Source: an uncultured Clostridia bacterium (GTDB taxonomy: Bacteria > Bacillota > Clostridia > Oscillospirales > JAAYOS01). Taken from it: a stretch of 41,260 nt of DNA. This document shows positions 12,722-34,773 of this stretch, one piece after another. Position numbers and translations under genes: made by a program. The notes below the pieces were generated by a model, which was given only the letters and a program-made list of their open reading frames with translations, did not search any database and was not told the origin of the DNA. Each line of letters starts with the position of its first letter. The first letter of the stretch is position 1. Location: positions 1 to 41,260 of the forward strand of contig CANRIN010000011.1 in assembly GCA_947630675.1 (NCBI GenBank). Direction: 5' to 3'.

Positions 12722-12891
12722 TTATTTTTTCCGGTGGCGTGTACGGCGGAAAAAATACTTCTCGCGGAGCGAGCTTCGAAGCGCCGCAGGCGCGAGGAGC
12801 AGAGCGGAGCGTTGCCGCCGGCAGGGCTTAGCCCTGTCCGGCGGCCTCGCGGCGAATTGGTAAACGAGCGAAGCGAGTGCGATTCGCCGCG
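12722..12891 (-). repeat. Composite hairpin element, copy 1
   Basis: Read on the minus strand, this holds the four modules found at other gaps. A: outer stem CGCGGCGAAT/ATTCGCCGCG (12848-12857 and 12882-12891). B: a bulged hairpin (12814-12845) of 8 bp, one bulged A, 6 bp and a TAA loop. C: a spacer related to 14953-15015, including CTCCGCGAGAAGTATTTTT. D: a hairpin with 9-bp arms (12725-12733 and 12747-12755) around the loop GTACACGCC. Module A faces the GtaA-like gene. Confidence 0.75.
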
Positions 12892-12936
12892 TCAGTCTGC
12901 CAAAAAAGTTCGTAAGAACTTTTTTGGCAGACTGAC
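12891..12936. repeat. Perfect 21-bp inverted repeat
   Basis: Positions 12891-12911 and 12916-12936 are exact inverted copies with the loop GTAA. The arms contain a run of six A/T pairs. It abuts module A of copy 1 and the second AAAGGACAGCG hairpin. Confidence 0.9.
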
Positions 12937-12963
12937 AAAGGACAGCGCAAAACGCTGTCCTTT
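12937..12963. terminator. Second AAAGGACAGCG hairpin
   Basis: AAAGGACAGCG (12937-12947) pairs with CGCTGTCCTTT (12953-12963). The arms are identical to those at 12543-12570 but the loop is CAAAA. It lies 42 nt upstream of the next start codon, so it could also act in the leader of that gene. Confidence 0.5.
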
Positions 12964-13005
12964 GCGGATTTTACAAAGAAATATAAATTCAGGGAGGAAA
13001 ACATT

Positions 13006-14862
13006 ATGAAGATGCGTATGCCGTCCGTGCCGCTCATAACGGTCGACCCATACTTCTCGGTGTGGAGCCGGGACGAGATAAACCGCAGGTGGCCGGTCCA
13101 CTGGACCGGCAGCCGAAACGCCATACTCGGCACCGTCACGGTGGACGGGGAGACCTTCCGCTTCCTCGGCGGCGGGGAGGGAGAGACGATAGAGCAGAAG
13201 TCTCTCGACATAGACGCCGTGAGCACCACCGCCGTCTTTGCAAACGGGAAGATAGAGCTCACGGCTCGGTTCCTCTCGCCGATGCTCATCACCGACCTCT
13301 ACTATGCGTCTCGGCCGGTGAGCTACCTCGAGCTGAGCTATAAGAGCCTTGACGGCGCGGAGCATGACGTCCGCGCGAAGGTGTCGGTATCGGAGGAGCT
13401 CGTCCTCAACCGCGCGGGCGAGGGGCGCGCCTGCTCGCGAGACGTCCCGCTCGCGAACGGCTCCTGCGTCCGCATGGGAAGCGGCGCGCAGAAGGTCCTC
13501 TGGAGAAGCGGGGACGACGTGCGTATCGACTGGGGATACCTCTACCTCGCCGTCCGGGGCGCGGCGGAGACCGGAAACGAGGTCTTTGAGGACCTGTACG
13601 CGGTGTATGCCGAGACGGAGCTGCGTCCGTCGGCGCTCTTTGCCTTCGGGTACGACGACATATCGAGCCTCATATACTTCGGCGAGCCGGTGAAGGCTTA
13701 CTGGAAAAAGGACGGCAGGACGATAGAGCAGGTGATGGACGAGGCGCTTTCCGACTACGAAGAGATATCCGATCGGTGCGAAAAGTTCTCGGGCGAAATG
13801 CTCGGCGAGGCAGAGCGGAAGGGCGGAGAGAAATACGCAGAGATACTCGCCCTCGCGTACCGCCAGGTCATGGCGGCGCACAAGCTCGCGCTCGACCCGG
13901 AGGGGAATGTCCTCTACATATCGAAGGAGTGCTTCTCGAACGGATGCGCCGCGACGGTCGACCTAACGTATCCGTCCGCGCCGCTCTATCTGCGCTACAA
14001 CACCGAGCTGCTGCGCGGTATGCTCCGTCCGGTGCTGAAGTACGCGCGGAGCGACGCGTGGGAGTTCGACTTCGCTCCGCACGACGTCGGACAGTACCCG
14101 CTCGTGAACGGACAGGTCTACGGCGGGAACCGGCTCGAGTACCAGATGCCGGTGGAGGAGAGCGGGAACATCCTCATCGTGGTTGCGGCCATGTGCGAGC
14201 GGGACGGGAATGCGGACTTCGCCGCGGAGAACATGGACTTGCTCGATAAGTGGAGCCGCTACCTCGACCGCTATGGCCTCGACCCGGAAAATCAGCTCTG
14301 TACCGATGACTTCGCGGGCCACCTCGCCCACAACGTCAACCTCACGATAAAGGCGGCGATGGGCATGGCAGGTTACGCGAAGATACTCGCGCGGCTCGGC
14401 CGCGCGGCCGAGGCAAAGAAGGCCGAGGCGAAGTCGCGGGAGTTTGCGGAGTCGATGCTCCGCCGCGCCGCGAACGGCGACGGGAGCTTCCGTCTTGCGT
14501 TTGACCGCCCGGACACGTTCAGCCTCAAGTACAACGCCGTCTGGGACCTGCTTTGGGGTGCGAAGCTCTTCCCCGAGAGCTTCTATGCGGGCGAGCTCGC
14601 GCGATATCGCCGCGAGGCGCTGCCCTACGGAGTCCCGCTCGACAACCGGGAGAAGTACACCAAGTCGGACTGGGAGATGTGGGTCGCCTGCTTCGGTTCG
14701 CGGGAGGACTTTGAGTTCGTCGCGGACCTGCTCTGGCGCGCATACGACACGATGCGCACCCGCGTTCCGCTCACCGACTGGTACTATGCGGACACGAGCG
14801 AGCAGCGCGGCTTCCAGCACAGAACGGCGCAGGGCGGACTGTTTATGCGGCTAATGTTTTAG
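13006..14862 (+). CDS. Glutaminase A-like (GtaA/DUF4965) protein
   Basis: A 618-residue protein resembling the GtaA glutaminase group (DUF5127, DUF4965 and DUF1793 regions). The start PLITVDPYFSVWSRDEINRR is characteristic. The middle has CAATVDLTYPSAPLYLRYN and WEFDFAPHDVGQYPLVNG. The C-terminal helical part has QMPVEESGNILI and DDFAGHLAHNVNLTIKA, typical of a six-hairpin barrel. Fungal and Bacteroides relatives are secreted, whereas this one has no signal peptide and should be cytosolic. GGGAGG precedes the ATG. The gene stands alone, flanked by structured repeats in mirror orientation. Glutamine amidase activity is known for few members; many relatives act in unknown ways. Confidence 0.85.
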   Translation: MKMRMPSVPLITVDPYFSVWSRDEINRRWPVHWTGSRNAILGTVTVDGETFRFLGGGEGETIEQKSLDIDAVSTTAVFANGKIELTARFLSPMLITDLYYASRPVSYLELSYKSLDGAEHDVRAKVSVSEELVLNRAGEGRACSRDVPLANGSCVRMGSGAQKVLWRSGDDVRIDWGYLYLAVRGAAETGNEVFEDLYAVYAETELRPSALFAFGYDDISSLIYFGEPVKAYWKKDGRTIEQVMDEALSDYEEISDRCEKFSGEMLGEAERKGGEKYAEILALAYRQVMAAHKLALDPEGNVLYISKECFSNGCAATVDLTYPSAPLYLRYNTELLRGMLRPVLKYARSDAWEFDFAPHDVGQYPLVNGQVYGGNRLEYQMPVEESGNILIVVAAMCERDGNADFAAENMDLLDKWSRYLDRYGLDPENQLCTDDFAGHLAHNVNLTIKAAMGMAGYAKILARLGRAAEAKKAEAKSREFAESMLRRAANGDGSFRLAFDRPDTFSLKYNAVWDLLWGAKLFPESFYAGELARYRREALPYGVPLDNREKYTKSDWEMWVACFGSREDFEFVADLLWRAYDTMRTRVPLTDWYYADTSEQRGFQHRTAQGGLFMRLMF

Positions 14863-14867
14863 GCGTC

Positions 14868-15050
14868 GGCGCGAAATGTGCTCGGGCGATAAATCGCCCT
14901 GCGCACCCTTTCGCGCTGAGGGCACCGGACAGAGCTTTGCTCTGCCGGTGCCTTGCGCTCCGCTACGCGCCGAGTTTTCCGCCTTCGGCGAAAAATCGAC
15001 GCACGCTCCGCGAGAAGTATTTTTCCCGACGTACACGCCGTCGGGAAAAA
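14868..15050 (+). repeat. Composite hairpin element, copy 2
   Basis: Starts 6 nt after the GtaA-like stop. Module A: nested stems GCGCGAAA/TTTCGCGC (14869-14876, 14909-14916), GTGC/GCAC and GGGCGAT/ATCGCCC (14884-14890, 14893-14899). Module B: 14921-14952, 8 bp, bulged A, 6 bp, TTT loop. Module C: 14955-15003, which matches 34725-34773 over 49 bases with one difference. Module D: 11-bp arms (15020-15030, 15040-15050) around the loop GTACACGCC. Confidence 0.85.
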
Positions 15051-15345
15051 TGATTGAACCTTATTCGCCGCCTTCGACACACGCTCGGCGCCAACTCCCA
15101 TTTCCTCGAACATTGCTTCCATGTGCCGCCGGAGGTGGTCGCCTCCTTTGACGCATTCCAGTATAACGACAGTCCGATCTATGACGACGGCTCCGTGCCC
15201 CGGCGGCGGCGAAGCTCGCCCGCCGGGAGACGCAGTTTGCCGCCGATCTGCAAAATGCCCGCGGCGCAGGCAGAAGAATGGCGGAAAAGATCAATGCCGG
15301 GATGTAAGAGACTCCCGCACAGTTTCAATGACCGTGTCAGAATAC
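15051..15345. other. Gap with possible decayed coding fragment
   Basis: No intact gene. On the minus strand, a stretch ending near 15055 reads VVILECVKGGDHLRRHMEAM and then FEEMGVGAERVSKAANK, which has coding-like composition. It runs straight into repeat module D and has no credible start or family match. It may be the remnant of a gene cut by repeat insertion, or chance. Confidence 0.25.
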
Positions 15346-15359
15346 GCAGTCGTTTTCGT

Positions 15360-15396
15360 AAAACAGACCCACTCGCCGGGCGAGTGGGTCTGTTTT
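15360..15396. terminator. Bidirectional terminator 1
   Basis: A 16-bp perfect stem (15360-15375 and 15381-15396) with loop CCGGG, flanked by A4 and T4. It is back to back with a second terminator and lies 3' of the DUF362 gene. Confidence 0.85.
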
Positions 15397-15437
15397 GCAA
15401 AAAGAGGGCGGGACATCTTGTCCCGCCCTCTTTTTGC
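15397..15437. terminator. Bidirectional terminator 2
   Basis: A 19-bp perfect stem (15397-15415 and 15419-15437) with a three-base loop TCT and A5/T5 flanks. It lies 6 nt after the DUF362 stop codon and is the main terminator for that minus-strand gene. Confidence 0.92.
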
Positions 15438-15443
15438 GCTGAT

Positions 15444-16307
15444 TTACTTTACTTCGATGAGCTCGTACTCGCGCGAGCCGTAGCCGTGCTCGACGGCAGC
15501 CTCTATCGTGTGGATGCCGTGGCGGCTCTCGATGCGCTCGATGAGCGCGGGTTTGCCGGGGTCGTCCGAGCCGTACACGAGGTCGACGCACGCCTGGTCT
15601 ATCGCTATCGGGTCGACGGAGGCGAGAATGCCGATGTCGTGCATGCAGGGCGCGGAGGCGTGACCGTCGCAGTCGCAGTCGACAGAGAGGTTCTTCATGA
15701 CGTTGATGTAGGCGATGTTGCCCTTGAAGAACTCTATGACCGAGCCGGCCGCGTCCGCCATCGACTCGAGGAAGTCGTCCTGATTCGTCTGCCACATCTT
15801 GTCGGGATGGCCCGCGCCGTGGATGTTCGCCTTGCCGTGCGCGGAGGCGACGCCTATCGAGAGCTGCTTGAGCGCGCCGCCGAAGCCGCCCATCGCGTGA
15901 CCCTTGAAGTGCGAGAGGACGAGCATCGAGTCGTACTTCTTCATGTTCTTGCCGACGAAGTTCTGCTTTATCTTCTTGCCGTTCGGGATCTCAAGGACGT
16001 CGTCCGGACCCTCACTGTCGAGTATCTCGGTGGGGAACATCGTCCAGTGGTGGTCTTCGAGGGTCTTGAGGTGGACGTCGGTGGTGGCGCGGGAGCCGCC
16101 GTAGGCGGTGTTGGTCTCGACTATCGTGCCGCCGACGTGGTCAAACATCGGCTTCCAGAACTCGGGGCGAAGGAAGTTCTGATTGCCCATCTCGCCGGAA
16201 TGCACCTTGAGTGCGACCTTGCCCGGCAGCTCCTTGTGGAGCATATCGAACATTTCCACGACCTTTTCGGGGGTGATAGTGCGGGTGAAGTAGACTTTTG
16301 AAGCCAT
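15444..16307 (-). CDS. DUF362-domain protein
   Basis: A 287-residue DUF362 protein. Recognisable parts are KVALKVHSGEMGN near the N-terminus, ETNTAYGGSRATTDVH, then LSHFKGHAMGGFGGALKQLSIG. A Cys/His-bearing DCDCDGHASAPCMHDIGIL leads into DPIAIDQACVDLVY. The C-terminal pair of 4Fe-4S motifs seen in some relatives is absent; the Cys residues in the DCDCD...CMHD segment could bind a metal (inference). Reaction is unknown. The ATG is preceded by GGAGG. The gene is monocistronic, ending at a double terminator. Confidence 0.85.
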   Translation of the reverse strand: MASKVYFTRTITPEKVVEMFDMLHKELPGKVALKVHSGEMGNQNFLRPEFWKPMFDHVGGTIVETNTAYGGSRATTDVHLKTLEDHHWTMFPTEILDSEGPDDVLEIPNGKKIKQNFVGKNMKKYDSMLVLSHFKGHAMGGFGGALKQLSIGVASAHGKANIHGAGHPDKMWQTNQDDFLESMADAAGSVIEFFKGNIAYINVMKNLSVDCDCDGHASAPCMHDIGILASVDPIAIDQACVDLVYGSDDPGKPALIERIESRHGIHTIEAAVEHGYGSREYELIEVK

Positions 16308-16421
16308 TTCAATACCTCCATAGTATTTTTATAGTTGACGTCGGGAGATCCCGCCGCCGTATTTTTGCCCTCCGGGACATTTCCCGAAGGGAAATTTACG
16401 GGTAAAGCTTTCTTTGAATAC

Positions 16422-16452
16422 AGTATACACCCTGGAGCGTGCTATAAGTCAA
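16422..16452 (-). promoter_or_regulatory. Possible promoter of the DUF362 gene
   Basis: Minus strand TTGACT (16447-16452) and TATACT (16422-16427) with a 19-nt spacer, longer than ideal. The -35 overlaps the 3' end of rnmV. Confidence 0.4.
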
Positions 16453-17057
16453 CCCTTTCGGGAAATTTTATCCGAAAGCTCAAATAGTTCCTCACGGGTA
16501 AGAAGCACACGGAGGACGGAAAAGAGCGCGGGACCGCCGAGCTTTTCGGGAAGGTCAAGCTCGCGGCAGAGCGCCGCACGCCTCGCGGAGGCGTCCGCAG
16601 AACCGGAGAGACCTGCCGCTATCATGTCCACGCGGGTGAGGTCATCCTTTTGCTCCCGCGCGGCGTCCTCGCCGTCAAGAAAGGTCGCACCGGCGCGCCT
16701 GAGCGCGAGCAGTATCGTCTCGGGCGGCATCCCCTCCACGCCGATGAGTCCTGCCTTCGAGGGGGCACGCTTGCGGCGCTCCTTTCCGCGGACCTCCGGG
16801 ATGTACGCCTGCTTCACGCTGTCCTTCGGGAGCATCCCGAGAAGGTGGCCGCGTATGACGCTCCCAGCGCCGTCGCTGTCGGTGAGGAGCACGACGCCGC
16901 GTTCTTCCGCGAGGCGGCGTATGAGCGCGAGCTTTTCCGCGTCGGAAAACACGCCGAAGCCGGCGGTCTCGACGACGGCGGCGTCCACCGCCTGCAGCAG
17001 AGCGTTTCGGTCGTAGCGTCCCTCGACGACGACCGCCTCGCGTATGCGCGGCTTCAC
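16449..17057 (-). CDS. rnmV: Ribonuclease M5
   Basis: A 202-residue ribonuclease M5, which trims 5S rRNA precursors in Bacillota. The toprim domain opens with IREAVVVEGRYDRNALLQAV (catalytic Glu) and continues to VVLLTDSDGAGSVIRGHL, the DxD motif. The C-terminal half is the M5-specific region (DUF4093 type), with GVEGMPPETILLALR. The start is GTG at 17057, overlapping the holA stop as GTGA. A longer frame upstream would lie within holA and is not needed. Confidence 0.88.
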   Translation of the reverse strand: MKPRIREAVVVEGRYDRNALLQAVDAAVVETAGFGVFSDAEKLALIRRLAEERGVVLLTDSDGAGSVIRGHLLGMLPKDSVKQAYIPEVRGKERRKRAPSKAGLIGVEGMPPETILLALRRAGATFLDGEDAAREQKDDLTRVDMIAAGLSGSADASARRAALCRELDLPEKLGGPALFSVLRVLLTREELFELSDKISRKG

Positions 17058-18103
17058 CGCTCGAGCGCCGCGAGGCGTAGTATGAGCGTTTCGAGCATGG
17101 CACTGCGGTCGGCGGATGAGCTTTTCAGCGCGTAGTCGCACTCGACACAGAGCTTCATGGCCTCGCGGGCCCAGCGCGTCGTGAACCTACGCGCGAGGTC
17201 GAGCTGCTTCCTCGCGATATAGGGGGAGGGAATGTCCGCCTCGCGCGCGAGCCAGTCCTGCCCGAGGCCGTCGTCTATGGCGATGCGCCCGTAGAAGATC
17301 TGGCGTATCTGGCGCGAGAGCGCGCCCACGATGTAAATGGGGTCGTTCCGCATGGACGTGAGCTCGCGGGAGAGCTCGAGCGCCTCCGCAAACTTCCCGG
17401 CGGCGACGCAGTCGGTGAGGTCGTACACGACGGCGTCCGCTATCGGACTGCACACCGCGTCGATGTCGGTTCGGAGTATCCTGCTGCCGGCGGAGTACGC
17501 GGCGAGCTTTTCGACTTCGTTTACAAGCAGCGTCATCGATCGCCCGCAGACAAAGAGCATCTGTTCCGCCTCGGGGAAATCTATCTCCTTGCCGAGCGAA
17601 CGGAAGCGCCGGCGGAGCCACCCGACGAGCTCGCGGTCCTCCTGGAGCGCAAATTCCACGGCAAGTCCGTTCGCCGCGACGAGCTTGTGTATCTTCGCCC
17701 GCACGTCCGCCTTGTACTCCGCTGTGTCATATACAAAGACAAGCGTGGTGTACTCCGGCAGGTCGGAGAGGAGAGCTTCGAGCCGTTCCTTTCTGTCCGC
17801 GCCGGGACGGTAGATGTCGAGGTCGGTGACGGTGACGAGCTTCCGTTCGCTGAACGCCGGAAGCGCCTCCACAGCGTCCTCAAGCTCGTCCATGTCGAGC
17901 GACGCTCCGTCGAAGCGGAAGAGGTTGAAGTCCTCCATCCCCTCCGCGACGGCGGCCTTTTGCAGCTGCTCGAGGTAGTATTCGAGAAGGTACTTCTCCT
18001 CGCCGTAAAAAACGTAGAGGCTCCGCAGAGCTCCGCTTTCAAGCTCGCCCTTGAAGACGCGGAGATTCTGCGCGTCGCTCTGACCTTTTTTCTTTGGGGG
18101 CAT
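17054..18103 (-). CDS. holA: DNA polymerase III delta subunit
   Basis: A 349-residue HolA, the clamp-loader subunit that opens the sliding clamp. N-terminal FYGEEKYLLEYYLEQL matches the delta fold, the segment RKLVTVTDLDIYRP lies in domain I, and the central part has the SRILRTDIDAVCSPIADAVVYDLTDCVAAG stretch common to HolA. The ATG at 18103 is preferred over the GTG 9 nt upstream because AAGGGAG is then at normal spacing. Order comEC-holA is conserved in many Bacillota. It overlaps rnmV by 4 nt. Confidence 0.92.
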   Translation of the reverse strand: MPPKKKGQSDAQNLRVFKGELESGALRSLYVFYGEEKYLLEYYLEQLQKAAVAEGMEDFNLFRFDGASLDMDELEDAVEALPAFSERKLVTVTDLDIYRPGADRKERLEALLSDLPEYTTLVFVYDTAEYKADVRAKIHKLVAANGLAVEFALQEDRELVGWLRRRFRSLGKEIDFPEAEQMLFVCGRSMTLLVNEVEKLAAYSAGSRILRTDIDAVCSPIADAVVYDLTDCVAAGKFAEALELSRELTSMRNDPIYIVGALSRQIRQIFYGRIAIDDGLGQDWLAREADIPSPYIARKQLDLARRFTTRWAREAMKLCVECDYALKSSSADRSAMLETLILRLAALER

Positions 18104-18181
18104 GTCTGTCACTCCCTTGCGGTTTTTATCGGCTGCTCCGCCAGTTTGCTTTCCGTGCGGAGATCAGATATGGCTTTTGCC

Positions 18182-18197
18182 GAGAGTCCGGACTCTC
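18182..18197. promoter_or_regulatory. Perfect 16-bp palindrome between comEC and holA
   Basis: GAGAGTCCGGACTCTC reads the same on both strands and has no spacer. It lies in the 116-nt gap between comEC and holA. It could be a protein-binding site or a stem in the readthrough transcript; no regulator is recognised. Confidence 0.55.
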
Positions 18198-18219
18198 ACC
18201 TGTGATGACTCGGCCATAC

Positions 18220-20478
18220 CTATCCTACGCGGACATGAAGGTTCCCGCCAAGGTCGGTGCGGTATATGTCGCACCCGTGCGCCTCGAGCCGCGCTACGGT
18301 GTCCGGGTGCGGGTGCCCGTAGGTGTTGTAACCGACCGAGATGAGCGATACATCCGGCAGTATCCGGTCGAGCAGGTAGTCCGAGCTCGAGCCGCGCGAG
18401 CCGTGGTGACCCGCGACGAATACCTCCACCGAGGAAAGTCCCTCTCTGTCGGCAAGCACAGTCTCGCTCTTAGCGCCGAGGTCGCCCGTCATTAGCATCG
18501 AGAATTCGCCGCGCTCCGCAAGGATGCTTATGCCCTCCTCGTTCTCTCCAGACCCGTGGACCGGGCGGAGAAGTGTGAGCGACGCCTTCCCGAACGGAAG
18601 CGTGAGATCGTTGTCCTCGACGAAAACGACCTCCGCGCCGCTGTCCCTGAGCAGGGCTATGGTGTCGTTATCCGAGTCCTCGTAGGGAAGGGGAAGGAAA
18701 GCCGTGTCCACCGAGACGAAGCGGAGCAGGTCACTGATGCCGTTCGCGTGGTCGGTGTGGTAGTGGGTGAGAATGAGCGCGTCGAGATGCCGCGTGCCCT
18801 CGAGCATAAGACGTTCGGCGGCGATGCAGCCCGCGCCGCCGTAGCCGTCCCCGCCGCAGTCGACAAGCGCCGTGTCGCCGCCGCTGCGGAGAAGTATCGA
18901 CTCGCCCTGTCCGACGTCGAGGACAGTCGCCTCAAAGCCGTCGATGCGGCGGTTCACTTCGCCGAGGGTCATCGAGAGGACGAGCGCACAACCTGCGGCG
19001 GCGGCGCATACTGCGCCGCGTCGGTTCCCCTCCGGTGAGAAGCGCCATATCAGGAGAAGAACGTATCCGAACGCGAGCGCGCAGAGGTTGTACGGGTCGC
19101 GCGCGTCAACGATCGAGAAGGGGACGCGGCTGCATACATGCGCGTCGGCGCGAAGCGCGAGCACCGCGAGCGTCACGACGCGGCCGAGGGCATGAGCGGC
19201 GGGCATGGATACGAATGCGAGAAGTCCGCTGAGAAGTCCGCCGATGAGCGCCACGGGAACGAAAAACATCGCGAAAATGTTTGTAAATATTCCGAAAAGC
19301 GATATGCTGCCGAATGTGTATGCGATGAGCGGCGCGGTGTACACCGTGGCTATCGCCGTCATCGCAACGGCGGAGGAGACGGCCCTCCATAGCCGCGCGA
19401 GGAGCCGGTTCTTAGGTGAAAAGAGCTCTCGCAGCCGCTTGGAGACCGCGTCCATATTGCAGAGTATCCCGTAGGTGGAGAGAAAGCTCAGCTGCAAGCC
19501 GATGTCGGATATCGAGAACGGGTTTATCAGCAGCAGAAATATCAGCGCCGCGGAGATAGCGCTCTTCGGGTCGGCGTCCCGCCGGAGCAGGACCGCGCCG
19601 AGCGCGAGCGCGTGCATTATGAAGGCTCTTGCGGCGGAGGGAGACGCCCCGCTCGTCAGCACGAAAAGCAGCGCTGTTGCGAGGGCGAAGGGTATACCGC
19701 GCCGCCGCCTGTTTCCGAACGCCCGGAGGACCATGCCGCACAGGAGCGTGACGTGCAGTCCGCTTATCGCGAGCAGGTGCGATAGTCCGCTCGCGCGGAC
19801 CTCGAGGCGGAGCGCGTCCGACATGTCCGAACGGTCGCCGACGGTGAGAGCCTTCACGACGGAGAGAGTATCGCCGTCGTAGAGCCGCTCGAGCCGCAGG
19901 GAAAGGGCATGTCCGAACGCGGCGGGAAGAAAGCGGAGCGGGGTCCGCTCCGCGCGCTCCACGGAAATTATCTCGGTGACTTTTCCGCTGAGGAAGACAC
20001 GCTTTGCGCGGTAGTACTCAAGAAAGTCAAAGTCCGGAGAGGACTCGGGGCGGGTGAGCTCGGCTTCGACGGTCACAACGTCGCCCGGGCGGAAATCGGT
20101 ATCCTCATCGAACCGGAGCCGCGCACGCGCGCCGTTCGCCTCGCGTATCTCGGCCTCGACGCCCGAGCCGTAGCTGTACGGCTCTGAGTATCCGCGAACG
20201 ACTGCGGTAAACTGACCGTAGGAGCCGGCGAGCCGTACCGCCGGAGCGTAGAATATCAGCGAAAAGAGCAGATGCCAGAGCGCCGCCGCGACGGCGGCGC
20301 AGGAGAAAACAGCCGCCGAAGCGCGGAGGTGCGAGACCCCTGCGCTTCGGCGGACGAGGTACCATATCGTAAACGCTGCGGCGAGGACGCCCGCCGGTAT
20401 CAGGGCAAACGCCCCGATGTACTCGGAGAGCAGCAGCGAGGCGGCAAAGCCCAGCGCCGCGGGTACGAGCGGACGCAT
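18220..20478 (-). CDS. comEC: Competence protein ComEC/Rec2
   Basis: A 752-residue DNA-uptake channel. The N-terminal hydrophobic helices and OB-like region (DUF4131 position) are followed by the competence domain with GLSHLLAISGLHVTLLCGM (about 230-250) and many membrane helices to about residue 470. The C-terminal metallo-beta-lactamase-like domain starts near DGFEATVLDVGQGESILL and has the metal motif LTHYHTDHANG and later VAGHHGSRGSS. The full-length three-domain form suggests a working protein. Its ATG overlaps the HIT stop by one base (TGATG). Confidence 0.95.
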   Translation of the reverse strand: MRPLVPAALGFAASLLLSEYIGAFALIPAGVLAAAFTIWYLVRRSAGVSHLRASAAVFSCAAVAAALWHLLFSLIFYAPAVRLAGSYGQFTAVVRGYSEPYSYGSGVEAEIREANGARARLRFDEDTDFRPGDVVTVEAELTRPESSPDFDFLEYYRAKRVFLSGKVTEIISVERAERTPLRFLPAAFGHALSLRLERLYDGDTLSVVKALTVGDRSDMSDALRLEVRASGLSHLLAISGLHVTLLCGMVLRAFGNRRRRGIPFALATALLFVLTSGASPSAARAFIMHALALGAVLLRRDADPKSAISAALIFLLLINPFSISDIGLQLSFLSTYGILCNMDAVSKRLRELFSPKNRLLARLWRAVSSAVAMTAIATVYTAPLIAYTFGSISLFGIFTNIFAMFFVPVALIGGLLSGLLAFVSMPAAHALGRVVTLAVLALRADAHVCSRVPFSIVDARDPYNLCALAFGYVLLLIWRFSPEGNRRGAVCAAAAGCALVLSMTLGEVNRRIDGFEATVLDVGQGESILLRSGGDTALVDCGGDGYGGAGCIAAERLMLEGTRHLDALILTHYHTDHANGISDLLRFVSVDTAFLPLPYEDSDNDTIALLRDSGAEVVFVEDNDLTLPFGKASLTLLRPVHGSGENEEGISILAERGEFSMLMTGDLGAKSETVLADREGLSSVEVFVAGHHGSRGSSSDYLLDRILPDVSLISVGYNTYGHPHPDTVARLEAHGCDIYRTDLGGNLHVRVG

Positions 20479-20840
20479 CAGCCCGGGGGCCAGGTCATGT
20501 CACGCCCCGAGAGGACGTGGAAGTGAAGGTGCGGGACGCTCTGCCCCGCCTGCTCGCCCACGTTCGAGACGACGCGGAACCCGTCTCCGAGGCCGAGCTC
20601 CGCCGAGAGCTTCGCTATCACCTCGAAGATGTGGCCGACGACGGCGGAATTCGAGCCATCGACGGCGGCGCAGGACTTTATGTGCTCCTTCGGCACGACG
20701 AGGAAGTGGACGGGCGCCTGCGGGTCGATGTCCTTAAAGGCGTAGCAGACGTCATCCTCATAAACCTTTGATGAGGGTATTTCACCCGCGACTATCTTAC
20801 AGAACAGGCAGTCCGGGTCACGCTTGGTCATTTCAGGCAT
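20478..20840 (-). CDS. HIT-family nucleotide-binding protein
   Basis: A 120-residue Hint-like histidine-triad protein. It begins with DCLFCKIVAGEIPSSKVYED, whose CxxC spacing is typical, and ends with the triad HLHFHVLSGRDM (His-x-His-x-His). Such proteins hydrolyse adenosine phosphoramidates. ATG at 20840 is chosen because GGAGG lies 8 nt upstream; a GTG nearer the Shine-Dalgarno is too close. Confidence 0.94.
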   Translation of the reverse strand: MPEMTKRDPDCLFCKIVAGEIPSSKVYEDDVCYAFKDIDPQAPVHFLVVPKEHIKSCAAVDGSNSAVVGHIFEVIAKLSAELGLGDGFRVVSNVGEQAGQSVPHLHFHVLSGRDMTWPPG

Positions 20841-20858
20841 TTGTGTCACCTCCGATTG

Positions 20859-21035
20859 TTATATGAAGCGGTTCGCTGCGGTGTCGTACTCAAAGCCGGC
20901 GTCCGCGAGCTTTCTTTCGAGCGCCGCGCGGTCGACGCCGCACGCGGCGCACAGCTCGTCAAGGCTCGGATAGAAGTCGCGAAGGCGGGTGTTGACGACG
21001 CTGAGGAGTATCATGGGATCCTGAGGCAGGCTCAC
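20859..21035 (-). CDS. DUF4250-domain small protein
   Basis: A 58-residue protein that begins MSLPQDPMILLSVVNTRLRD and continues with DFYPSLDELCAACGVDR, ending near FEYDTAANRFI. This matches the small DUF4250 family of Clostridia, of unknown function. The start is GTG at 21035, overlapping the alaS stop as GTGA; the PQDPMILLS segment before the internal ATG belongs to the family, so the GTG is right. It follows alaS and precedes the HIT gene by 18 nt. Confidence 0.85.
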   Translation of the reverse strand: MSLPQDPMILLSVVNTRLRDFYPSLDELCAACGVDRAALERKLADAGFEYDTAANRFI

Positions 21036-25200: not shown

Positions 25201-25214
25201 TGGAGGTGTAGAAG

Positions 25215-26185: not shown

Positions 26186-26218
26186 GTGCTTCCGCGTCGG
26201 ATATTGTTATTATTTCTG

Positions 26219-26247: not shown

Positions 26248-26250
26248 TAT

Positions 26251-26269: not shown

Positions 26270-26295
26270 TATTCCTGGGGGGAGTGGAAACGGGT

Positions 26296-27825: not shown

Positions 27826-29033
27826 AGAAGAAATCGGGAAGCGGCTTCCGCCGCGCCGTCCTCGCCGTATTCGGAGACGAGCGCAGACAGTCGATAACGA
27901 TACCGGTGTTCGCGGTCGTGCTGAGCCTTCTCGCCTCCGCCGTGATGCTCCTCGCCCTCGGCAAGGACCCGATAAATGCGTTTCTCGGGATGCTGCGCGG
28001 CTGCGGCATAATCCCTAAAGCAAACTACGCCGCGCGGACGGGTATGCTCACCGACTTCATGAGCTTCCTCAACGTCCTCGCGCCGATGATATTTGCGGCG
28101 CTCGCTGTGGCGGTCGCGTCCAAGACCGGACTTTTTAACATTGGTATCTCCGGACAGATGCTCTTTGCCGGATTTATCGCCACGGTGGTCGTGGGATACA
28201 GCGACCTTCCGGCGGCCGCAGCGCTGCCGCTCGTGATAATCATCGGGATCGTCGCAGGGGCGCTCATCGGCGGCATAATCGGGTTCCTGAAGTATAAGTT
28301 CAACATTAACGAGGTCGTAAGCTCAATAATGCTGAACTACATAATCCAGTACGTGGTGTCCTTCTTTATAAATATGTACTATGTAGACCCGGTGTCGCGC
28401 CAGTCAATGTATATAAGCGACGCGTCCCGGCTCACCGTCACCGGCGTCGAGATATTCGGCATGAAGGCCGACCTGCCGCTCGCGATGCTGCTCGTCCCTC
28501 CTGCGATAATCTTTGCAAAGGTGCTTTTTGACCGCACGAAGATCGGGTATGAGATGAAGAGCGTCGGCCTCAGCCGCAACGCCGCGCGGTACGCGGGCAT
28601 GAGCGTTGGCAAGAACATGGTCCTGTCGATGCTTGTTTCCGGTGCGCTTGCCGGTCTTGCGGGAGTGGCGTACTACCTCGGTTACTTCAACTCCATACAA
28701 CCGGGCGTGCTCACGAGCGTCGGCTTTGACTCGATAGCGGTGTCGATACTCGGAAACTACAACCCGCTTGGCATATTCTTCTCGTCCTTCCTCATAACGA
28801 TAGTCTCCAAGGGCAGCACCTATATGTCAAGCTCCGCCGCCATCCCGCAGGAGATAGCCTCGATAATCACGGGACTTATCCTTGTCGTGAGCGCGTGTAC
28901 CTTTTTCATACGCACGAAGCTCGCGAGGATGAGCGAGCGCGAGCTCGAGAGCCGCAGAGCCGCGGAGGCGGCGGAAACGCCGCGGCCTGCGGTCCCGGCG
29001 GCGGACGACGACAGCAAAGGAGGCGAGCGGTAA
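27822..29033 (+). CDS. Nucleoside-type ABC transporter permease, NupP-like
   Basis: A 403-residue BMP-family permease with about eight to ten membrane helices. FAALAVAVASKTGLFNIGISGQM is the family hallmark, and KFNINEVVSSIMLNYI and RYAGMSVGKNM also match. It has a charged C-terminal tail rich in Ala, Glu and Arg. It starts in the ATGA overlap with the ATPase and its stop abuts the next start (TAAATG). Substrate by family would be purine nucleosides or related simple molecules; the exact one is not visible. Confidence 0.92.
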   Translation: MKKKSGSGFRRAVLAVFGDERRQSITIPVFAVVLSLLASAVMLLALGKDPINAFLGMLRGCGIIPKANYAARTGMLTDFMSFLNVLAPMIFAALAVAVASKTGLFNIGISGQMLFAGFIATVVVGYSDLPAAAALPLVIIIGIVAGALIGGIIGFLKYKFNINEVVSSIMLNYIIQYVVSFFINMYYVDPVSRQSMYISDASRLTVTGVEIFGMKADLPLAMLLVPPAIIFAKVLFDRTKIGYEMKSVGLSRNAARYAGMSVGKNMVLSMLVSGALAGLAGVAYYLGYFNSIQPGVLTSVGFDSIAVSILGNYNPLGIFFSSFLITIVSKGSTYMSSSAAIPQEIASIITGLILVVSACTFFIRTKLARMSERELESRRAAEAAETPRPAVPAADDDSKGGER

Positions 29034-29978
29034 ATGGAAACCTTTATAAGCGACGGTCTTTCCTTCGCGCTGCCGCTCTTTGTCATAGCGATAGGCGGCA
29101 TCTACAGCGAGCGGAGCGGCATAACTAACCTTGCCCTCGAGGGTATGCTCGGAATGGGTGCGTTCGTCGGCGCGCTCGCGGTCGTGCTCTTCACGAACGG
29201 AGCGTTTGCGGGGGAGTTCTACCTTGCAATGCTCTTTGCACTCCTCGGCGGCGCACTGTTTGCCGTAATCCATGCGGTACTCTGCATCAACTTCCGCGCA
29301 AATCAGGTCATAAGCGGCGTCGTTATCAACATACTTGCGACGGCGCTCGCGGCATTCCTCGCAAAGCTGATAAACTCCGCCGTGTTCGGGCAGAACTCCA
29401 ACAAGTTCCAGCTCAGCACCGCGCCGACGCTCGGGGCGATATTCCCCGGTATAAGCGGCGTCCCGGTCCTCGGAAGAATGTATGTGTTCGTTCCGATAAT
29501 ACTTGTCGTGGCGCTGGCAGCGTGGTTCGTCCTCTACAAGACCCGCTTCGGAATGCACCTCCGCGCCTGCGGCGACAACCCCCACGCGGTCGACGCGGCG
29601 GGAGGGAACGTCGCGCGCACCCGCTTTATCGCGGTCATAGCTTCCGGAGCGCTGAGCGGCATCGGCGGCATCTGCTTTGCATATTATATCGCTGCAAACT
29701 TTTCGCCTAGCATCTTCATGGGCTACGGCTATCTGTCGATAGCGGCGCTGATATTCGGCAACTGGCGCGTCATGCCGACTCTTGCGGCGTGTCTGCTCTT
29801 CGGCTTCGCACGCTCGGGCGGATACGCCGTGGCGAAGATACTGGAGCTTCCGAGCACCTTCTCGAACCTAATAATGACGCTGCCGTATATCGTCACGCTG
29901 CTGCTGTTGGTGTTCTTCTCGAAGTCGAACCGTGCGCCGCGCGCCCTCGGAGAGATATACGACAAGGGAAAACGGTAA
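29034..29978 (+). CDS. Nucleoside-type ABC transporter permease, NupQ-like
   Basis: A 314-residue second permease of the same importer. SERSGITNLALEGMLGMGAFVG and NFRANQVISGVVINI are typical, followed by KTRFGMHLRACGDNPHAVDAAG. The operon ends here without a BMP binding lipoprotein, which normally leads such operons. A composite hairpin element follows 7 nt after the stop. Confidence 0.92.
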   Translation: METFISDGLSFALPLFVIAIGGIYSERSGITNLALEGMLGMGAFVGALAVVLFTNGAFAGEFYLAMLFALLGGALFAVIHAVLCINFRANQVISGVVINILATALAAFLAKLINSAVFGQNSNKFQLSTAPTLGAIFPGISGVPVLGRMYVFVPIILVVALAAWFVLYKTRFGMHLRACGDNPHAVDAAGGNVARTRFIAVIASGALSGIGGICFAYYIAANFSPSIFMGYGYLSIAALIFGNWRVMPTLAACLLFGFARSGGYAVAKILELPSTFSNLIMTLPYIVTLLLLVFFSKSNRAPRALGEIYDKGKR

Positions 29979-29984
29979 ACACAA

Positions 29985-30239
29985 TCGCGGCGAATCGCAC
30001 TCGCGGACGACCCATTTCATGCAATGTCGGGACGTCGGCGCGAAGCGCCGAGGTCTGATGCGCCCGGTAGGCATCCGGATGAGGTATCGGTTTGCAAGCG
30101 CATTTTTACCAATTCGCCGCGAGACCACCGAACAGGACAAAGCCCTGTCGGTGGCGAGCACCCGGCTTTGTCCCTCGCTACGCTCGAAACACGCCGGGCG
30201 ATAGGTGTAAATTTCGCCGTACACGCCGCCGAAATTTAC
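29985..30239 (+). repeat. Composite hairpin element, copy 3
   Basis: Module A: outer stem TCGCGGCGAAT/ATTCGCCGCGA (29985-29995, 30112-30122) with a long inner part that includes TCGGCGC-GAA-GCGCCGA (30035-30051). Module B: 30125-30154, 7 bp, bulged A, 6 positions with one mismatch, AAA loop. Module C is divergent. Module D: 10-bp arms GTAAATTTCG/CGAAATTTAC (30207-30216, 30230-30239) with the conserved GTACACGCC in the loop. Confidence 0.8.
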
Positions 30240-30298
30240 TGATTGGAATCTATTTTGCGCCTGTCGGCGCGAAACTTTACAAAGTCTTTCGACAAGAT

Positions 30299-30321
30299 GG
30301 GCAGGAGGATGTATCCTGCCC
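30299..30321 (+). promoter_or_regulatory. Leader hairpin upstream of uxaC
   Basis: GGGCAGGA pairs with TCCTGCCC across a seven-base loop, about 45 nt ahead of uxaC. No T-run follows. It may be part of a leader or mark the end of the upstream operon. No clear promoter was identified in the gap. Confidence 0.4.
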
Positions 30322-30367
30322 TGATGTCTACCTGATGTATAGATGTATATAAGTAAGGAGCGCAGAA

Positions 30368-31756
30368 ATGAAAGAAAACGTTTTTTTGAGAAGCTCGGCT
30401 GCTGAGAGGCTCTACGCCGGAGTAAAGGACCTGCCGATAGTCGACTTCCACTGCCACCTCTCCCCGGAGGAGCTGTACCTTGACCGTCCGTTTGAGAACA
30501 TCGGCGAGATGTGGCTTTCGGGCGACCACTACAAGTGGCGGCTCATGCGCGAGGCGGGCATAGACGAGCGACTCGTCACCGGCGACGCGACGTGGGAGGA
30601 GAAGTTCGAAGCCTACGCCGGGTGTGTTGAGCTCGCCGTCGGGAACCCGCTCTACCACTGGACGGCGCTCGAGCTTGAGCGCTACTTCGGCGTGACCGAG
30701 CCGCTCACGGCGGAGAACGCGCGCGAAATATACGCAAAGGTCGGAGAGAGGATAAAGGAGACGCGGCTTTCGCCCCGAAAGTGCGTCGAGATGATGAAGG
30801 TCGAGTATGTCTGCACGACCGACGACCCGGCGGACGACCTCGTCTGGCACCGCCGCTTCGAGGATGACCGCAGGGCGGGACGAAACCCGCTTCCGGCAAG
30901 GATAGCGCCCGCGTTCCGTGCGGACAACGTGGCAAACGTCCGCAGAAAGGGTTACGGAGAGTACATAGAAAGACTGGGACGCACGGCGGAAGTCGAGATA
31001 AGGTCTCTCGACGGCCTGGAGGATGCGCTTCGCCGCCGGCTGGACGACTTCTGCGCGCTCGGGTGCCGGTTCGCGGACGTCGGAGTGGAGGGATTGCCCT
31101 CCGCCGAGTGCTCACGCGGGCGCGCCGAGGAGATATTCGAGGGTGCCGTCGAGGGACGGTACGAGACAGGAATGCCGAAGGACGACTACTCCGCATGGCT
31201 CGGGTATATCTACCGCTTCCTCGCGGGGGAGTACGCGGCGCGCGGGATGGTGTCGCAGCTCCACTTCGCGGCAAAGCGCAACCCGCGCACGTCGCTCTTT
31301 GAGAGCTTCGGCCCGGACGCGGGGACCGACTGTGCCGCGGATGCAGTGACTCCTTCGGTGCTCGCGGATTTCCTTGACAGCTGCGAGCGTGGAGCGGGTC
31401 TGCCGGAGACGATAGTCTACACGCTCGAACCCTCGAACGCTCCGGCGCTCGCGAGTGCGGCGTCCAGCTTCCCGCGTGTGAGGATGGGCGCTGCCTGGTG
31501 GTTCCATGACACGCTCGGCGGTATAGCCCGCCAAATAGAGACGGTGGCGGAGGCGGGATACCTCGCTTCCTTCCCCGGGATGCTCACCGACAGCCGCAGC
31601 TTTCTCTCCTATCCGCGCCACGACTTCTACCGCCGTATCGCCGCGAGCGTGCTCGGCGAGTGGGTAGAGCGCGGAGAGGCTGAGGAGGCCGCGTGCGAGA
31701 AGGTGATGCGCAGGATATGTTACGAAAACGCCGCGAAAATGGCGTTCGGGAAATAA
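30368..31756 (+). CDS. uxaC: Uronate isomerase
   Basis: A 462-residue uronate isomerase, converting D-glucuronate to D-fructuronate and D-galacturonate to D-tagaturonate. IVDFHCHLSPEEL carries the HxH metal motif of the amidohydrolase fold; EYVCTTDDPADDLVWH and QLHFAAKRN are family signatures, and the end MLTDSRSFLSYPRHDFYRRI is typical. Length is normal. GGAGCG lies ahead of the ATG. It leads a cluster with two sugar isomerase/epimerase genes and an oxidoreductase; the usual uronate dehydrogenase and dehydratase genes are absent here. Confidence 0.96.
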   Translation: MKENVFLRSSAAERLYAGVKDLPIVDFHCHLSPEELYLDRPFENIGEMWLSGDHYKWRLMREAGIDERLVTGDATWEEKFEAYAGCVELAVGNPLYHWTALELERYFGVTEPLTAENAREIYAKVGERIKETRLSPRKCVEMMKVEYVCTTDDPADDLVWHRRFEDDRRAGRNPLPARIAPAFRADNVANVRRKGYGEYIERLGRTAEVEIRSLDGLEDALRRRLDDFCALGCRFADVGVEGLPSAECSRGRAEEIFEGAVEGRYETGMPKDDYSAWLGYIYRFLAGEYAARGMVSQLHFAAKRNPRTSLFESFGPDAGTDCAADAVTPSVLADFLDSCERGAGLPETIVYTLEPSNAPALASAASSFPRVRMGAAWWFHDTLGGIARQIETVAEAGYLASFPGMLTDSRSFLSYPRHDFYRRIAASVLGEWVERGEAEEAACEKVMRRICYENAAKMAFGK

Positions 31757-31805
31757 GCCGAGACTTCCGGTCGAGGCAACAACAATACCGTAAGGAGGGA
31801 TACGT

Positions 31806-32570
31806 TTGATAGTAGGAGCACAGGGCTACACCGTCCGGGCATTTGCGCAGGACGAGGCGGGCATAGCGGAGACGATGAAGAAGATAGCCGCAATAGGCTA
31901 CAGAACCTTGCAGGTATCGGCGTTCGCGCCGATAGCCCCGGAGCGGATGCGCGAGCTCGCGGACGAGGCGGGGCTTCAGATAGTCGTCACCCACACGAAC
32001 CAGGACCGCATAATGAACGAGCCGGAGGCGGTCGCGCGCGAGCACGCGATCTACGGATGCAAAAACGTCGGAATAGGCATGATGCCGCAGAAGTACGTCG
32101 GCAGCGTGGAGGGGATGCGCGCGTTTCTCCGCGACTTCGACCGGGCGGCGCGGGTCTTCCGCGAGCGCGGGATGAAGCTGCACTACCACAACCACTGCTT
32201 TGAGTACCAGCGCTTCGGAGGTACGCCGCTTATCGACATCATGGCGGACGAGATGGACCCCGACCTCTGGGGCTTCATCCTCGACCTCTTCTGGGTACAG
32301 GCCGGCGGGAGGAACCCCGCAAGCGAGCTCCGCCGCTTCGAGGGGCGGGTGGACGTCTGCCACTTTAAGGACTACGCCGTCGAGGGCTGGGACAAGCGCT
32401 TTGCGCCGATAATGGAGGGCAACCTCGAGTGGGACGAGATATTCGAGACGTGCCGTGACACCGGCGTCGAATACGCGATGGTCGAGCAGGACGACTCCTA
32501 CGGGCGCGACCCGTTCGACGAGCTGCGCATAAGCTATGAAAATCTGAAGAAAGCGGGGCTGAAGTTCTGA
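31806..32570 (+). CDS. Sugar phosphate isomerase/epimerase (TIM barrel) 1
   Basis: A 254-residue AP-endonuclease-2-like TIM barrel. Likely metal ligands are Glu in HYHNHCFEY, Asp in FILDLFWVQAGG, His in VCHFKDY and Glu in MVEQDDS. Start is TTG at 31806, directed by AAGGAGGG; no better start is nearby. It follows uxaC by 49 nt. The family includes xylose isomerase-like, inosose and ketose epimerase enzymes, so the substrate is open; a keto-uronate or its reduced product is plausible from position (inference). Confidence 0.87.
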   Translation: MIVGAQGYTVRAFAQDEAGIAETMKKIAAIGYRTLQVSAFAPIAPERMRELADEAGLQIVVTHTNQDRIMNEPEAVAREHAIYGCKNVGIGMMPQKYVGSVEGMRAFLRDFDRAARVFRERGMKLHYHNHCFEYQRFGGTPLIDIMADEMDPDLWGFILDLFWVQAGGRNPASELRRFEGRVDVCHFKDYAVEGWDKRFAPIMEGNLEWDEIFETCRDTGVEYAMVEQDDSYGRDPFDELRISYENLKKAGLKF

Positions 32571-33424
32571 TGACCGATTTCAGACTTTGTGCGTTTGCCG
32601 ACGAGGCGTCGGGAGACCTCGCGGGGCAGATCGAGGCGCTCCGACGGAACGGTATGCGCCTTATAGAGATACGGAACGTCGGGCGGAAGGCCGTCACCGA
32701 CCTCTCGGACGAAGAGCTGGACGACGTCGCGAAGACCCTTCATGCCGCGGGCATAGAGGTGTGGAGCATCGGGTCGCCGCTCGGCAAGACACGCCTTGAG
32801 GACACGGAGGAGAACCGCCGCCGCTTCGAGCGGTCTGTAGAGGCGGCAAAGCGCCTCGGCACGACGCAGGTGAGGATGTTCAGCTACTATGTCTCCGAGG
32901 AGGAGGCGGACGGAACGGCGGACGCGATATTCGCGGAGCTCCGGCGGATGGCGGAGCTCGCCGAAAAGGAGGGCATCCTTCTCTGCCATGAGAATGAGAA
33001 GGGAATATACGGCGCGACGGCGGAACGGACTCTCCGCCTGCTCGAGGCCGTGCCGCCGCTCGGCTCGGTCTTCGACCCGGCAAACTACATACAGTGCGGC
33101 GAGCGTCCGGACGCGATCTTCCCGCGCTTTGCCGCGAGGACGACCTATCTGCACATCAAGGACGCGCTCGCTGAGGACGGCACGGTCGTGCCGTCCGGCG
33201 AGGGGGACGGAGGCGTCGCGAAGATAATAGACATGTTCGCGGAGAAGGGGAGCGGGCGCGTGCTCACGCTCGAACCGCACCTTTTCAGCTTCATCGGGCT
33301 GAAGAACTTACAGACCGAGGAACTGCGGCACAAATTCAGCTACTCCACGCCGGGCGAGGCTTTCGACGCCGGCGCGGACGCGCTGAAAGGAATACTTGAC
33401 AGAGGAGGATACAGCTATGAGTGA
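32570..33424 (+). CDS. Sugar phosphate isomerase/epimerase (TIM barrel) 2
   Basis: A 284-residue TIM barrel, a distant relative of the preceding gene. Likely metal ligands are Glu in CHENEKGIYG, Asp in SVFDPANYIQCG, His in YLHIKDA and Glu in TLEPHLFSF. Its ATG overlaps the upstream stop by one base. Two adjacent members of this family with little mutual identity suggest successive steps or different substrates. It overlaps the oxidoreductase by 8 nt. Confidence 0.87.
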   Translation: MTDFRLCAFADEASGDLAGQIEALRRNGMRLIEIRNVGRKAVTDLSDEELDDVAKTLHAAGIEVWSIGSPLGKTRLEDTEENRRRFERSVEAAKRLGTTQVRMFSYYVSEEEADGTADAIFAELRRMAELAEKEGILLCHENEKGIYGATAERTLRLLEAVPPLGSVFDPANYIQCGERPDAIFPRFAARTTYLHIKDALAEDGTVVPSGEGDGGVAKIIDMFAEKGSGRVLTLEPHLFSFIGLKNLQTEELRHKFSYSTPGEAFDAGADALKGILDRGGYSYE

Positions 33425-34592
33425 ACTGAACGTAGGCATCATCGGCATAGGCAACATGGGAAGCGCTCATTCAAAAAACATCCTTGCGGGCAAGGTAGAG
33501 GGCATGCGCCTTGCGGCGGTGTGCGACATCTCACCCGCGAAGCTCGACTGGGCTAAGGAAAATCTGCCGGACGTACCGCGCTTCTCGGACGCGCATGAGA
33601 TGATAAAGAGCGGGCTCATCGACACGATGATCGTCGCGACGCCGCACTACTTCCATCCGCCGCTTGCGATGGCGGGCTTCGACGCGGGGCTGAACGTGCT
33701 CATAGAGAAGCCGGCGGGCGTGTACACTTCCGCCGTCGAGAAGATGAACGAGGCGGCGAAGAAGAGCGGAAAGGTTTTCGGGATAATGTTCAACCAGCGC
33801 ACGAACCCGCAGTTCCGCAAGATACGCGAGATGATACGCTCCGGCGAGATAGGCGAGCCGAAGCGCCTCGTGTGGATAATCACAAACTGGTACCGTACCC
33901 AGAGCTATTACGACTCCGGCTCGTGGCGCGCCACATGGGCGGGCGAGGGCGGCGGCGTCCTGCTGAATCAGGCCCCGCACCAGCTCGACCTCTGGCAGTG
34001 GATGTTCGGCATGCCGCAGAGAGTCTGGGCGCGCTGCCGCTACGGTCACTGGCACAACGTCGAGATAGAGGATGACGTGACTGCTTACGCCGAGTACGAC
34101 AACGGCGCGAGCGCGACCTTCATAACTACCACCGGCGAGTATCCCGGCACGAACCGCCTAGAGATAAGCGGCGACCGGGCGAAGCTCGTCTGGGAGGGCG
34201 GAAAGCTTCACATGTGGAAGCTTGACGAGCCGGAGCGTGAGGTCTGCTTTACATCAAAGCAGGGCTTCGCGACGCCGCCCGTCACCGAGCTCGAGCCGGA
34301 GTGTCCCGGCGTCGAGACCGCGCACGTCGGCATACTTCAGAACTTTGCGAACGCCGTTCTGCACGGCGAGGAGCTGATAGCTCCCGGCTATGACGGCATA
34401 AACGGCCTCACCCTCTCGAACGCCATGCACCTCAGCGACTGGACGGGAAAGATGGTCGAGCTGCCGCTTGACACCGAGCTCTTTGAGAGGTATCTTGACG
34501 AGCGCCGCAAAACCTCCAGGATAAAGGCGGAGGTCGAGGGCGCGCCGGAGGACATACGCGGCACCTACAACGACAGGTGGAATGTAAGATAA
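33417..34592 (+). CDS. Gfo/Idh/MocA-family oxidoreductase
   Basis: A 391-residue NAD(P)-dependent sugar oxidoreductase. The N-terminal Rossmann fold has VGIIGIGNMGSAHSKNI, and NVLIEKPAGVYTSA contains the family Glu-Lys-Pro motif with its catalytic-region Lys. The C-terminal beta-sheet domain carries GGVLLNQAPHQLDLWQWMFG, which includes the usual D/H region. ATG at 33417 is set by GGAGG 8 nt upstream. As the only redox enzyme of the cluster, it may reduce the keto-uronate from UxaC or oxidise a related sugar acid (inference). Confidence 0.93.
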   Translation: MSELNVGIIGIGNMGSAHSKNILAGKVEGMRLAAVCDISPAKLDWAKENLPDVPRFSDAHEMIKSGLIDTMIVATPHYFHPPLAMAGFDAGLNVLIEKPAGVYTSAVEKMNEAAKKSGKVFGIMFNQRTNPQFRKIREMIRSGEIGEPKRLVWIITNWYRTQSYYDSGSWRATWAGEGGGVLLNQAPHQLDLWQWMFGMPQRVWARCRYGHWHNVEIEDDVTAYAEYDNGASATFITTTGEYPGTNRLEISGDRAKLVWEGGKLHMWKLDEPEREVCFTSKQGFATPPVTELEPECPGVETAHVGILQNFANAVLHGEELIAPGYDGINGLTLSNAMHLSDWTGKMVELPLDTELFERYLDERRKTSRIKAEVEGAPEDIRGTYNDRWNVR

Positions 34593-34596
34593 AAAG

Positions 34597-34773
34597 TCGC
34601 GGCAAATTGCGGGCGCGGATTTCATCCGCGCCCTTACCAATTTGCCGCGAGACGTTCACTTGAAATTGCACAGGCGCAATTTCAAGTGAAGCTGTCGGGT
34701 AGGGCGAAGCCCTACCGACAGCAAGCGCTCCGCTACGCGCCGAGTTTTCCGCCTTCGGCGGAAAATCGACGCA
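34597..34773 (+). repeat. Composite hairpin element, copy 4 (modules A to C)
   Basis: Module A: perfect nested stems, outer 34598-34609/34638-34649 (12 bp) and inner 34611-34620/34624-34633 (10 bp, TTC loop). An extra 15-bp hairpin follows (34655-34669/34676-34690). Module B: 34691-34722, 8 bp, bulged G, 6 bp, GAA loop. Module C: 34725-34773, near identical to copy 2. Module D is missing and other hairpins follow instead. Module A starts 5 nt after the oxidoreductase stop and could terminate it. Confidence 0.85.

Follow-up and report, generated by a model that had tools for sequence, protein, structure and literature searches.

The stretch of DNA analyzed here, referred to as the window, comprises 41,260 nucleotides (nt) of contig CANRIN010000011.1 from an uncultured Clostridia bacterium (metagenome-assembled genome, MAG, of 2.06 Mb, designated G000), and carries four copies of a mosaic repeat, each built as a 0.2-0.8 kb chain of hairpin modules A to E together with blocks termed F, G, and H. 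Element 1 lies on the minus strand, where a nested stem A (12847..12890) is followed by the bulged hairpin B (12814..12845, matched by a covariance model at E=2.9e-17), the spacer or hairpin C (12758..12813), module D (12723..12757), a decayed module E (12688..12717), and module F (12583..12677, placed by exact match), which consists of two hairpins, ends in GGGCGCATT-CTCTaCGAGG, and is also present in other elements. Module D is a stem with a conserved GTACACGCC loop, and across the family its stems covary and its loop is conserved. Two copies of a terminator-like hairpin on the plus strand flank this element at 12543..12572 and 12937..12965.

The remaining three elements are located on the plus strand, a few nt behind genes. 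Element 2 begins 3 nt past the TAG of a glutaminase-like gene (13006-14862) and contains an alternative first hairpin A' (14866..14919), hairpin B (14921..14952, E=1.2e-15), spacer or hairpin C (14953..15017), module D (15018..15052), and a truncated module E (15057..15072). In element 3, the 5' arm of module A (29985..30126) starts 6 nt past the TAA of a permease gene (29034-29978), an F block (30022-30104) sits in the loop of A, and the modules B (30124..30155, E=4.5e-12), C (30156-30205), D (30206-30241), and E (30246-30275) follow. Element 4, which opens with module A (34596..34650) 3 nt past the TAA of an oxidoreductase gene (33396-34592), possesses an extra hairpin A'' (TTCACTTGAAATTGC.., 34651..34690), found ahead of B in 23 of 119 copies of the family, and continues with B (34691..34722, E=9.9e-16) and hairpin C (34723..34773), whose 36-nt core occurs at 28 places in the genome with at most three mismatches. 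Further modules extend over 34774..35249, including G blocks (34774-34940), H pieces (34942-34964 and 35088-35182), a second piece of C (35185-35228), and the start of an F block (35229-35249). The large G and H blocks within 34823-35182 carry hairpins of their own.

A preliminary description of this DNA had reported one module order in four gaps, with hairpin D in three of them; the modules were recovered at those places, module D being found in elements 1-3. Hairpin B, which was said to keep a constant shape, indeed has the same build in all four elements (8 base pairs (bp), a single base bulging from the 5' strand, a further 6 bp, and a loop of 3 nt), and the stem sequences quoted for it agree with the letters of the window. 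The makeup and extents given for the gaps stood only in part: the modules are present, but element 2 opens with the distinct hairpin type A' (CGGCGCGAAATGTGCTC...), which corrects the earlier module list, and elements 1 and 4 overrun the ends first given, reaching approximately 12583 and 35249, respectively. The outer stem of B in element 3 comprises the eight letters ACCACCGA, of which the outermost A is unpaired, and its inner stem contains one A-C mismatch. Elements 1-3 have A as the bulged base and element 4 has G; among 72 copies (with at least one locus entered twice), the bulge is A in 69 and G in three.

According to the covariance model of module B, scored on 150 of the 3534 first-look candidates in G000, this genome contains 96 matches at E<=5e-10, a number well beyond chance; 22 more are listed at E 2.9e-6 or worse, many of which are opposite-strand echoes. 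The genus set comprises five genomes (G000-G004), all drafts, and those close relatives that bear names are uncultured Clostridia MAGs labelled 'Lapin', presumably of rabbit gut origin. In a 59-genome sample, where 91 candidates were scored per genome and hit counts are thus lower bounds, module B was found at least 75 times in G001, at least 90 times in G003, and at least 88 times in G004, and no match was obtained in the genus-mate G002 or in the other 54 genomes. An order-wide scan of 394 genomes from 168 genera, including G000, placed module B in four genomes, all of one genus, and in none of the 389 genomes outside the genus, with 13 candidates scored in each and with stricter filters that lose weak matches. 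G000 contains the word WYTCTGCGAGGC, which stands at the 3' end of the elements, 111 times, compared to two occurrences of its reversed control; G002 contains it once. Among genomes of other genera, the top count of this word is 12, in G021 (same order, other family), against one for the reversed control; module B was not found in G021 in the 59-genome scan despite these 12 places.

The preliminary description could match the structure to no named element and proposed comparing it with Rfam and searching this and related genomes with a covariance model. Both have now been carried out: the search returned the 96 matches and the three positive genus-mates, while none of the 4227 Rfam families matched the window over the gathering cut-off. 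A permissive Rfam search of three loci gave just five matches to microRNA families (E 0.15-0.97), far under the cut-off. Searches of open-licence PMC papers yielded no description of this repeat family. Viral carriage was also considered; one exact match to the B pattern appeared in viral contigs, but the other modules are absent from the 501 bases read there, and the match was taken as chance.

The position of the elements relative to genes was assessed with 92 starts, namely A or A' modules flanked by 900 nt or more and pooled across related genomes, and with gene calls made by a codon-position filter. A same-strand gene call lies upstream of 70 of these starts, and 49 of the 92 fall within 15 nt past a same-strand stop codon, most of them at 2-7 nt, compared to 27 of 3000 random positions. 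Six element sites were compared with G002, the genus-mate that lacks the family. At three of them (L080/L191, L164/L196, and L149/L188), a stop codon is followed by a terminator in G002 and by the element and then a terminator in G000; at a fourth (L154/L197), the stop codon in G002 is followed by the ribosome-binding site of the next gene. Terminator-like hairpins were found past the last element ends in 30 of 120 cases in sense and 26 of 120 in antisense, compared to 11 of 600 random windows. Because the element mostly lies between stop codon and terminator where an element-free ortholog is comparable, the elements are probably transcribed as 3' untranslated regions (UTRs) of stable hairpins, and an effect on the mRNA may be supposed. 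In the comparison of L067 (G000) with L108 and L138, the frame of the upstream gene seems to enter the element, so that the end of the coding sequence, stop codon included, would be provided by the first bases of the element.

In 24 comparisons with relatives, the sequences on either side of the element align in the same order, and orthologous sites in the genus-mates hold other modules, shorter versions, or no module at all. Element 1, for example, is present at L039 and absent from L040 and L042; it lies between two copies of a 29-30-nt hairpin, which is single in these two empty sites. Modules are also found inside modules, such as a G block within C bounded by TCGACG (L145 vs. L121) and an extra H block or H-like sequence within G (L088 vs. 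L116), and there are F units repeated behind CTCTGCGAGGC (L154) as well as F-D chimeras at GTACA (L155 vs. L138). Very short forms with both ends retained occur in L108 and L138, at the site that corresponds to L067, and may have arisen by internal deletion. L058 and L134 share an identical module A and nearly identical modules C and D but differ in three base pairs of B, which fits an exchange of whole hairpins. With regard to the features of miniature inverted-repeat transposable elements, the element ends (TTTCGC...GCGAGGC) are weakly inverted and the direct repeats vary (TCGACG, GTACA, CTCTGCGAGGC, or the 29-30-nt hairpin).

The stems covary strongly. In 32 copies of module B, 98.0% of cells are paired, compared to 91.2% after shuffling, and eight of 14 pairs changed on both sides; in 118 distinct copies, whose alignment was fitted to the covariance model and so leans towards structure, the values are 97.3% and 88.6%, and both partners have changed in 12 of the 14 pairs. 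The Watson-Crick share exceeds that of shuffled stems in the outer (97.1% vs. 81.4%) and inner (99.1% vs. 82.6%) stems of B as well as in A (98.8% vs. 86.4%), D (96.0% vs. 64.2%), and E (96.7% vs. 76.7%), although these absolute values are flattered, since A, D, and E copies under the pairing threshold, the outermost pair of B, and copies without the B core letters were left out. At one position of module A, all four Watson-Crick pairs are in use. Pairing maintained at the RNA level should leave G-U clearly better tolerated than A-C; among 3911 cells, G-U (35) and A-C (29) are about equally rare. Orthologous B hairpins (32 pairs, some loci being counted in several species pairs) differ by 72 two-sided and 15 one-sided base-pair changes, with at least one two-sided change in 25 pairs and no change in five; three misread pairs of an initial 35 were dropped, and the counts with them are 87 and 27.

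Loops were compared within perfect 7-bp stems with a 3-nt loop near B, among which 20 stem sequences have at least four copies. For 12 of these 20 stems, the reverse complement of the dominant loop occurs among the remaining copies (shuffled mean 4.7, reached in 1 of 5000 shuffles), and 25 reverse-complement loop pairs were counted within stems (shuffled mean 13.2, reached in 0 of 5000), statistics in which the related copies are non-independent. Moreover, two loci show a perfect match between the arms together with a loop that is inverted relative to the ortholog. At L138 of G003, the arms ATTGGTAA..TTACCAAT form a perfect palindrome around the loop TTT, and its ortholog L155 in G000 reads ATCGC..TTACCAAT with loop AAA; likewise, L130 of G003 reads ATTGGTAAAGGAGCGGGC-AAA and its ortholog L017 in G000 ATCGCAGGAGCGGGC-TTT. 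The symmetric form is probably derived, given that the asymmetric one is prevalent (48 of 119 copies). According to previous studies, template switching at inverted repeats yields arm overwriting and loop inversion (PMC8794818; PMC8604942): a template-switch mutation can make a multi-base compensatory change in one event and correct stems (PMC8794818), and inverted-repeat arms can be homogenized and the spacer inverted (PMC8604942). We infer that template switching, rather than slow compensatory evolution of an RNA, caused the arm overwriting and loop inversion observed here. Because the stems are near-strictly Watson-Crick, orthologs differ by whole pairs, loops are inverted, and arms are overwritten, much of the covariation can be explained by template switching together with the exchange of units, and individual copies need not have been selected for pairing. 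The preliminary description, which was right about a modular repeat with constant hairpin geometry and covarying stems, held that a conserved RNA or hairpin-DNA structure leaves such covariation; this inference stands only in part, given the near-equality of G-U and A-C, the two-sided changes, the loop inversion, and the arm overwriting.

Taken together, the family is best read, with a probability of roughly 0.77, as a genus-restricted, non-autonomous mosaic repeat that is often located behind stop codons and whose arms are kept matched by template switching and hairpin exchange. The composite consists of A or A', an optional A'', and B, C, D, and E, with F, G, and H blocks nested or appended, and about half of the copies stand in sense orientation a few nt behind a stop codon, mostly between it and the terminator where an element-free ortholog is available for comparison. 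An activity acting in trans might have spread it to about 100 sites per genome. At replication, template switching would rewrite one arm from the other and invert the loop, and whole hairpins would be exchanged between copies; both processes together would leave the arms matched while their sequences turn over. Two options raised earlier, a non-autonomous mobile element and a 3'-end RNA structure, come close to this reading.

Several observations speak against such a repeat or its proposed placement. Module insertions show no constant target duplication, the direct repeats there being TCGACG, GTACA, or CTCTGCGAGGC, and at element 1, which is intergenic and not behind a stop codon, the 29-30-nt hairpin is doubled. 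Among the 92 starts, 19 have an opposite-strand gene call upstream and three lack any; of the 70 with a same-strand call, 21 are separated from the stop codon by over 15 nt. Two of the six comparisons with G002 misfit, the element standing after the terminator at L150 and ahead of a gene start at L007; the element at L058 is likewise behind a terminator, and a terminator-like hairpin occurs within 80 nt upstream of six of 72 A starts. The terminator counts support nearness to terminators and not direction. Module E alone tilts towards G-U (13, against six A-C). No transposase could be tied to the family in searches that covered the Y1 type and not other transposase families. In addition, copies pooled from related genomes are non-independent, and all genomes compared are drafts.

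Without a dedicated transposase, the hairpins might have arisen, been corrected, and increased in number chiefly through replication template switching and single-strand exchange in stop and terminator regions, as a family of self-propagating DNA hairpins, or an unknown class of enzyme might move single-stranded hairpins to stop-codon/terminator junctions; this is possible, although we consider it unlikely. A conserved functional RNA, with the 3' UTR structure of every copy under selection for a role in mRNA stability, in attenuation, or in binding a protein that recognizes the bulged A, appears rather improbable. The sense orientation behind stop codons, a very stable predicted RNA fold (z -7.5), a bulged A in 69/72 copies, and the strong covariation would suit it, but the opposite strand folds equally (as DNA, z -7.7), G-U is hardly above A-C (35 vs. 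29), orthologs differ by modules that have been exchanged, cut short, or lost from one of them, and G002 does without the family.

It is very doubtful that the elements are repetitive extragenic palindromic (REP) sequences or bacterial interspersed mosaic elements (BIMEs) moved by a REP-associated tyrosine transposase (RAYT) of the Y1 type. Mosaic palindromic repeats in about 100 copies downstream of genes resemble what passages of PMC3733652 describe for REPs; however, no Y1 transposase (PF01797) was found in the five draft genus genomes, where the same search was positive in five of 14 known control genomes, the modules are larger and chained, and hairpins A, B, D, and E lack an unpaired GTAG/CGTC tag beside them. 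Reverse transcriptase (PF00078) was also not found in the five genomes, with three of 14 controls positive. The integron site attC is a bulged hairpin directly behind open reading frames. A single-strand recombination site of this kind would share with the elements the extrahelical base, the variable sequence, and the frequent place after stop codons, and yet it is scarcely credible here. None of the five genomes has an integron integrase (TIGR02249) over the cut-off, and this goes against the recombination site that had been suggested as a third option; the weaker matches were given by all 14 control genomes too and represent general tyrosine recombinases. Since both flanks align in order in the 24 comparisons, the neighboring genes show no cassette-like movement.

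A tyrosine recombinase located directly after a stop codon in L040 was considered as a mobilizer of the non-autonomous repeat and rejected: its close relatives are multi-copy in G003 and G004, and G000 has no match. At L178-L181, the same type of recombinase is followed by an inverted-repeat pair (ATCGACATTATTGGTATAATGTCGAT type) ahead of another gene, suggesting an invertible-promoter (phase-variation) locus and not machinery of the elements. Multi-copy tyrosine recombinase genes lie close behind other genes at L175-L181 and L184 (G003 and G004), and several G003 contigs end there. In relatives, the sites of window elements 2 (L040) and 4 (L177 and L181) hold tyrosine recombinase loci.

Apart from the four elements, the window contains a separate GC-rich repeat family (GGGGCGACCCCCGCG.., GGTAGAGC..GCTCTACC) at 58-179 and 40530-40813, in inverted orientation near both window ends. 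Three tandem 27-nt repeats are also present at 2243-2323, apparently within a coding region.

Covarying stems are generally regarded as the strongest evidence that an RNA structure is under selection, and this family offers a natural high-copy test case. Its covarying stems bear marks of mutational arm-copying (loop inversion and little excess of wobble pairs), so that covariation alone could mislead a test of the R-scape type. It also adds to gut Clostridia a mosaic extragenic repeat family with no known mobilizer, often tight behind stop codons, and makes the spread of such repeats testable by strain comparison.

Among known systems, the template-switch work described in PMC8794818 reports the same marks as found here, but from the histories of RNA genes, whereas the present case is a multi-copy bacterial repeat family. 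REP and BIME sequences are, according to passages of PMC3733652 and PMC2817692, high-copy palindromic units arranged in mosaics, mostly downstream of coding regions, and many are plausibly transcribed; the words Firmicutes and Clostridi are absent from the main text of both. The present family is similar in being high-copy (96 matches) and mostly downstream of genes (70/92 starts). Unlike REP and BIME sequences, it occurs in a genus where none of the five genomes has a RAYT transposase, and its modules are larger, chained, and of many unlike kinds in a preferred order. No unpaired GTAG/CGTC tag could be read by eye at modules A, B, D, and E, and in module F the letters CGTC and GGTAG are present but lie partly in the stem and inside the loop. 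Repeated hairpins across intergenic regions are also a trait of mitochondrial double-hairpin and repetitive hairpin-forming elements, as far as partial descriptions go, and those belong to organelle genomes. The BOX element of Streptococcus pneumoniae is, in passages of PMC3049150, a composite of boxA-boxB(n)-boxC whose stem-loops can form 3' adducts of operons, and the family described here is likewise a composite of separately recognizable hairpin modules in variable number. It differs from BOX, in a comparison by partial description and not by alignment, in its host, in the many copies 2-7 nt behind stop codons, in its nested inserts, and in hairpin swapping. We read the family as a mosaic interspersed palindromic repeat that is BIME- and BOX-like in kind and a member of neither, being set apart from BOX by description.

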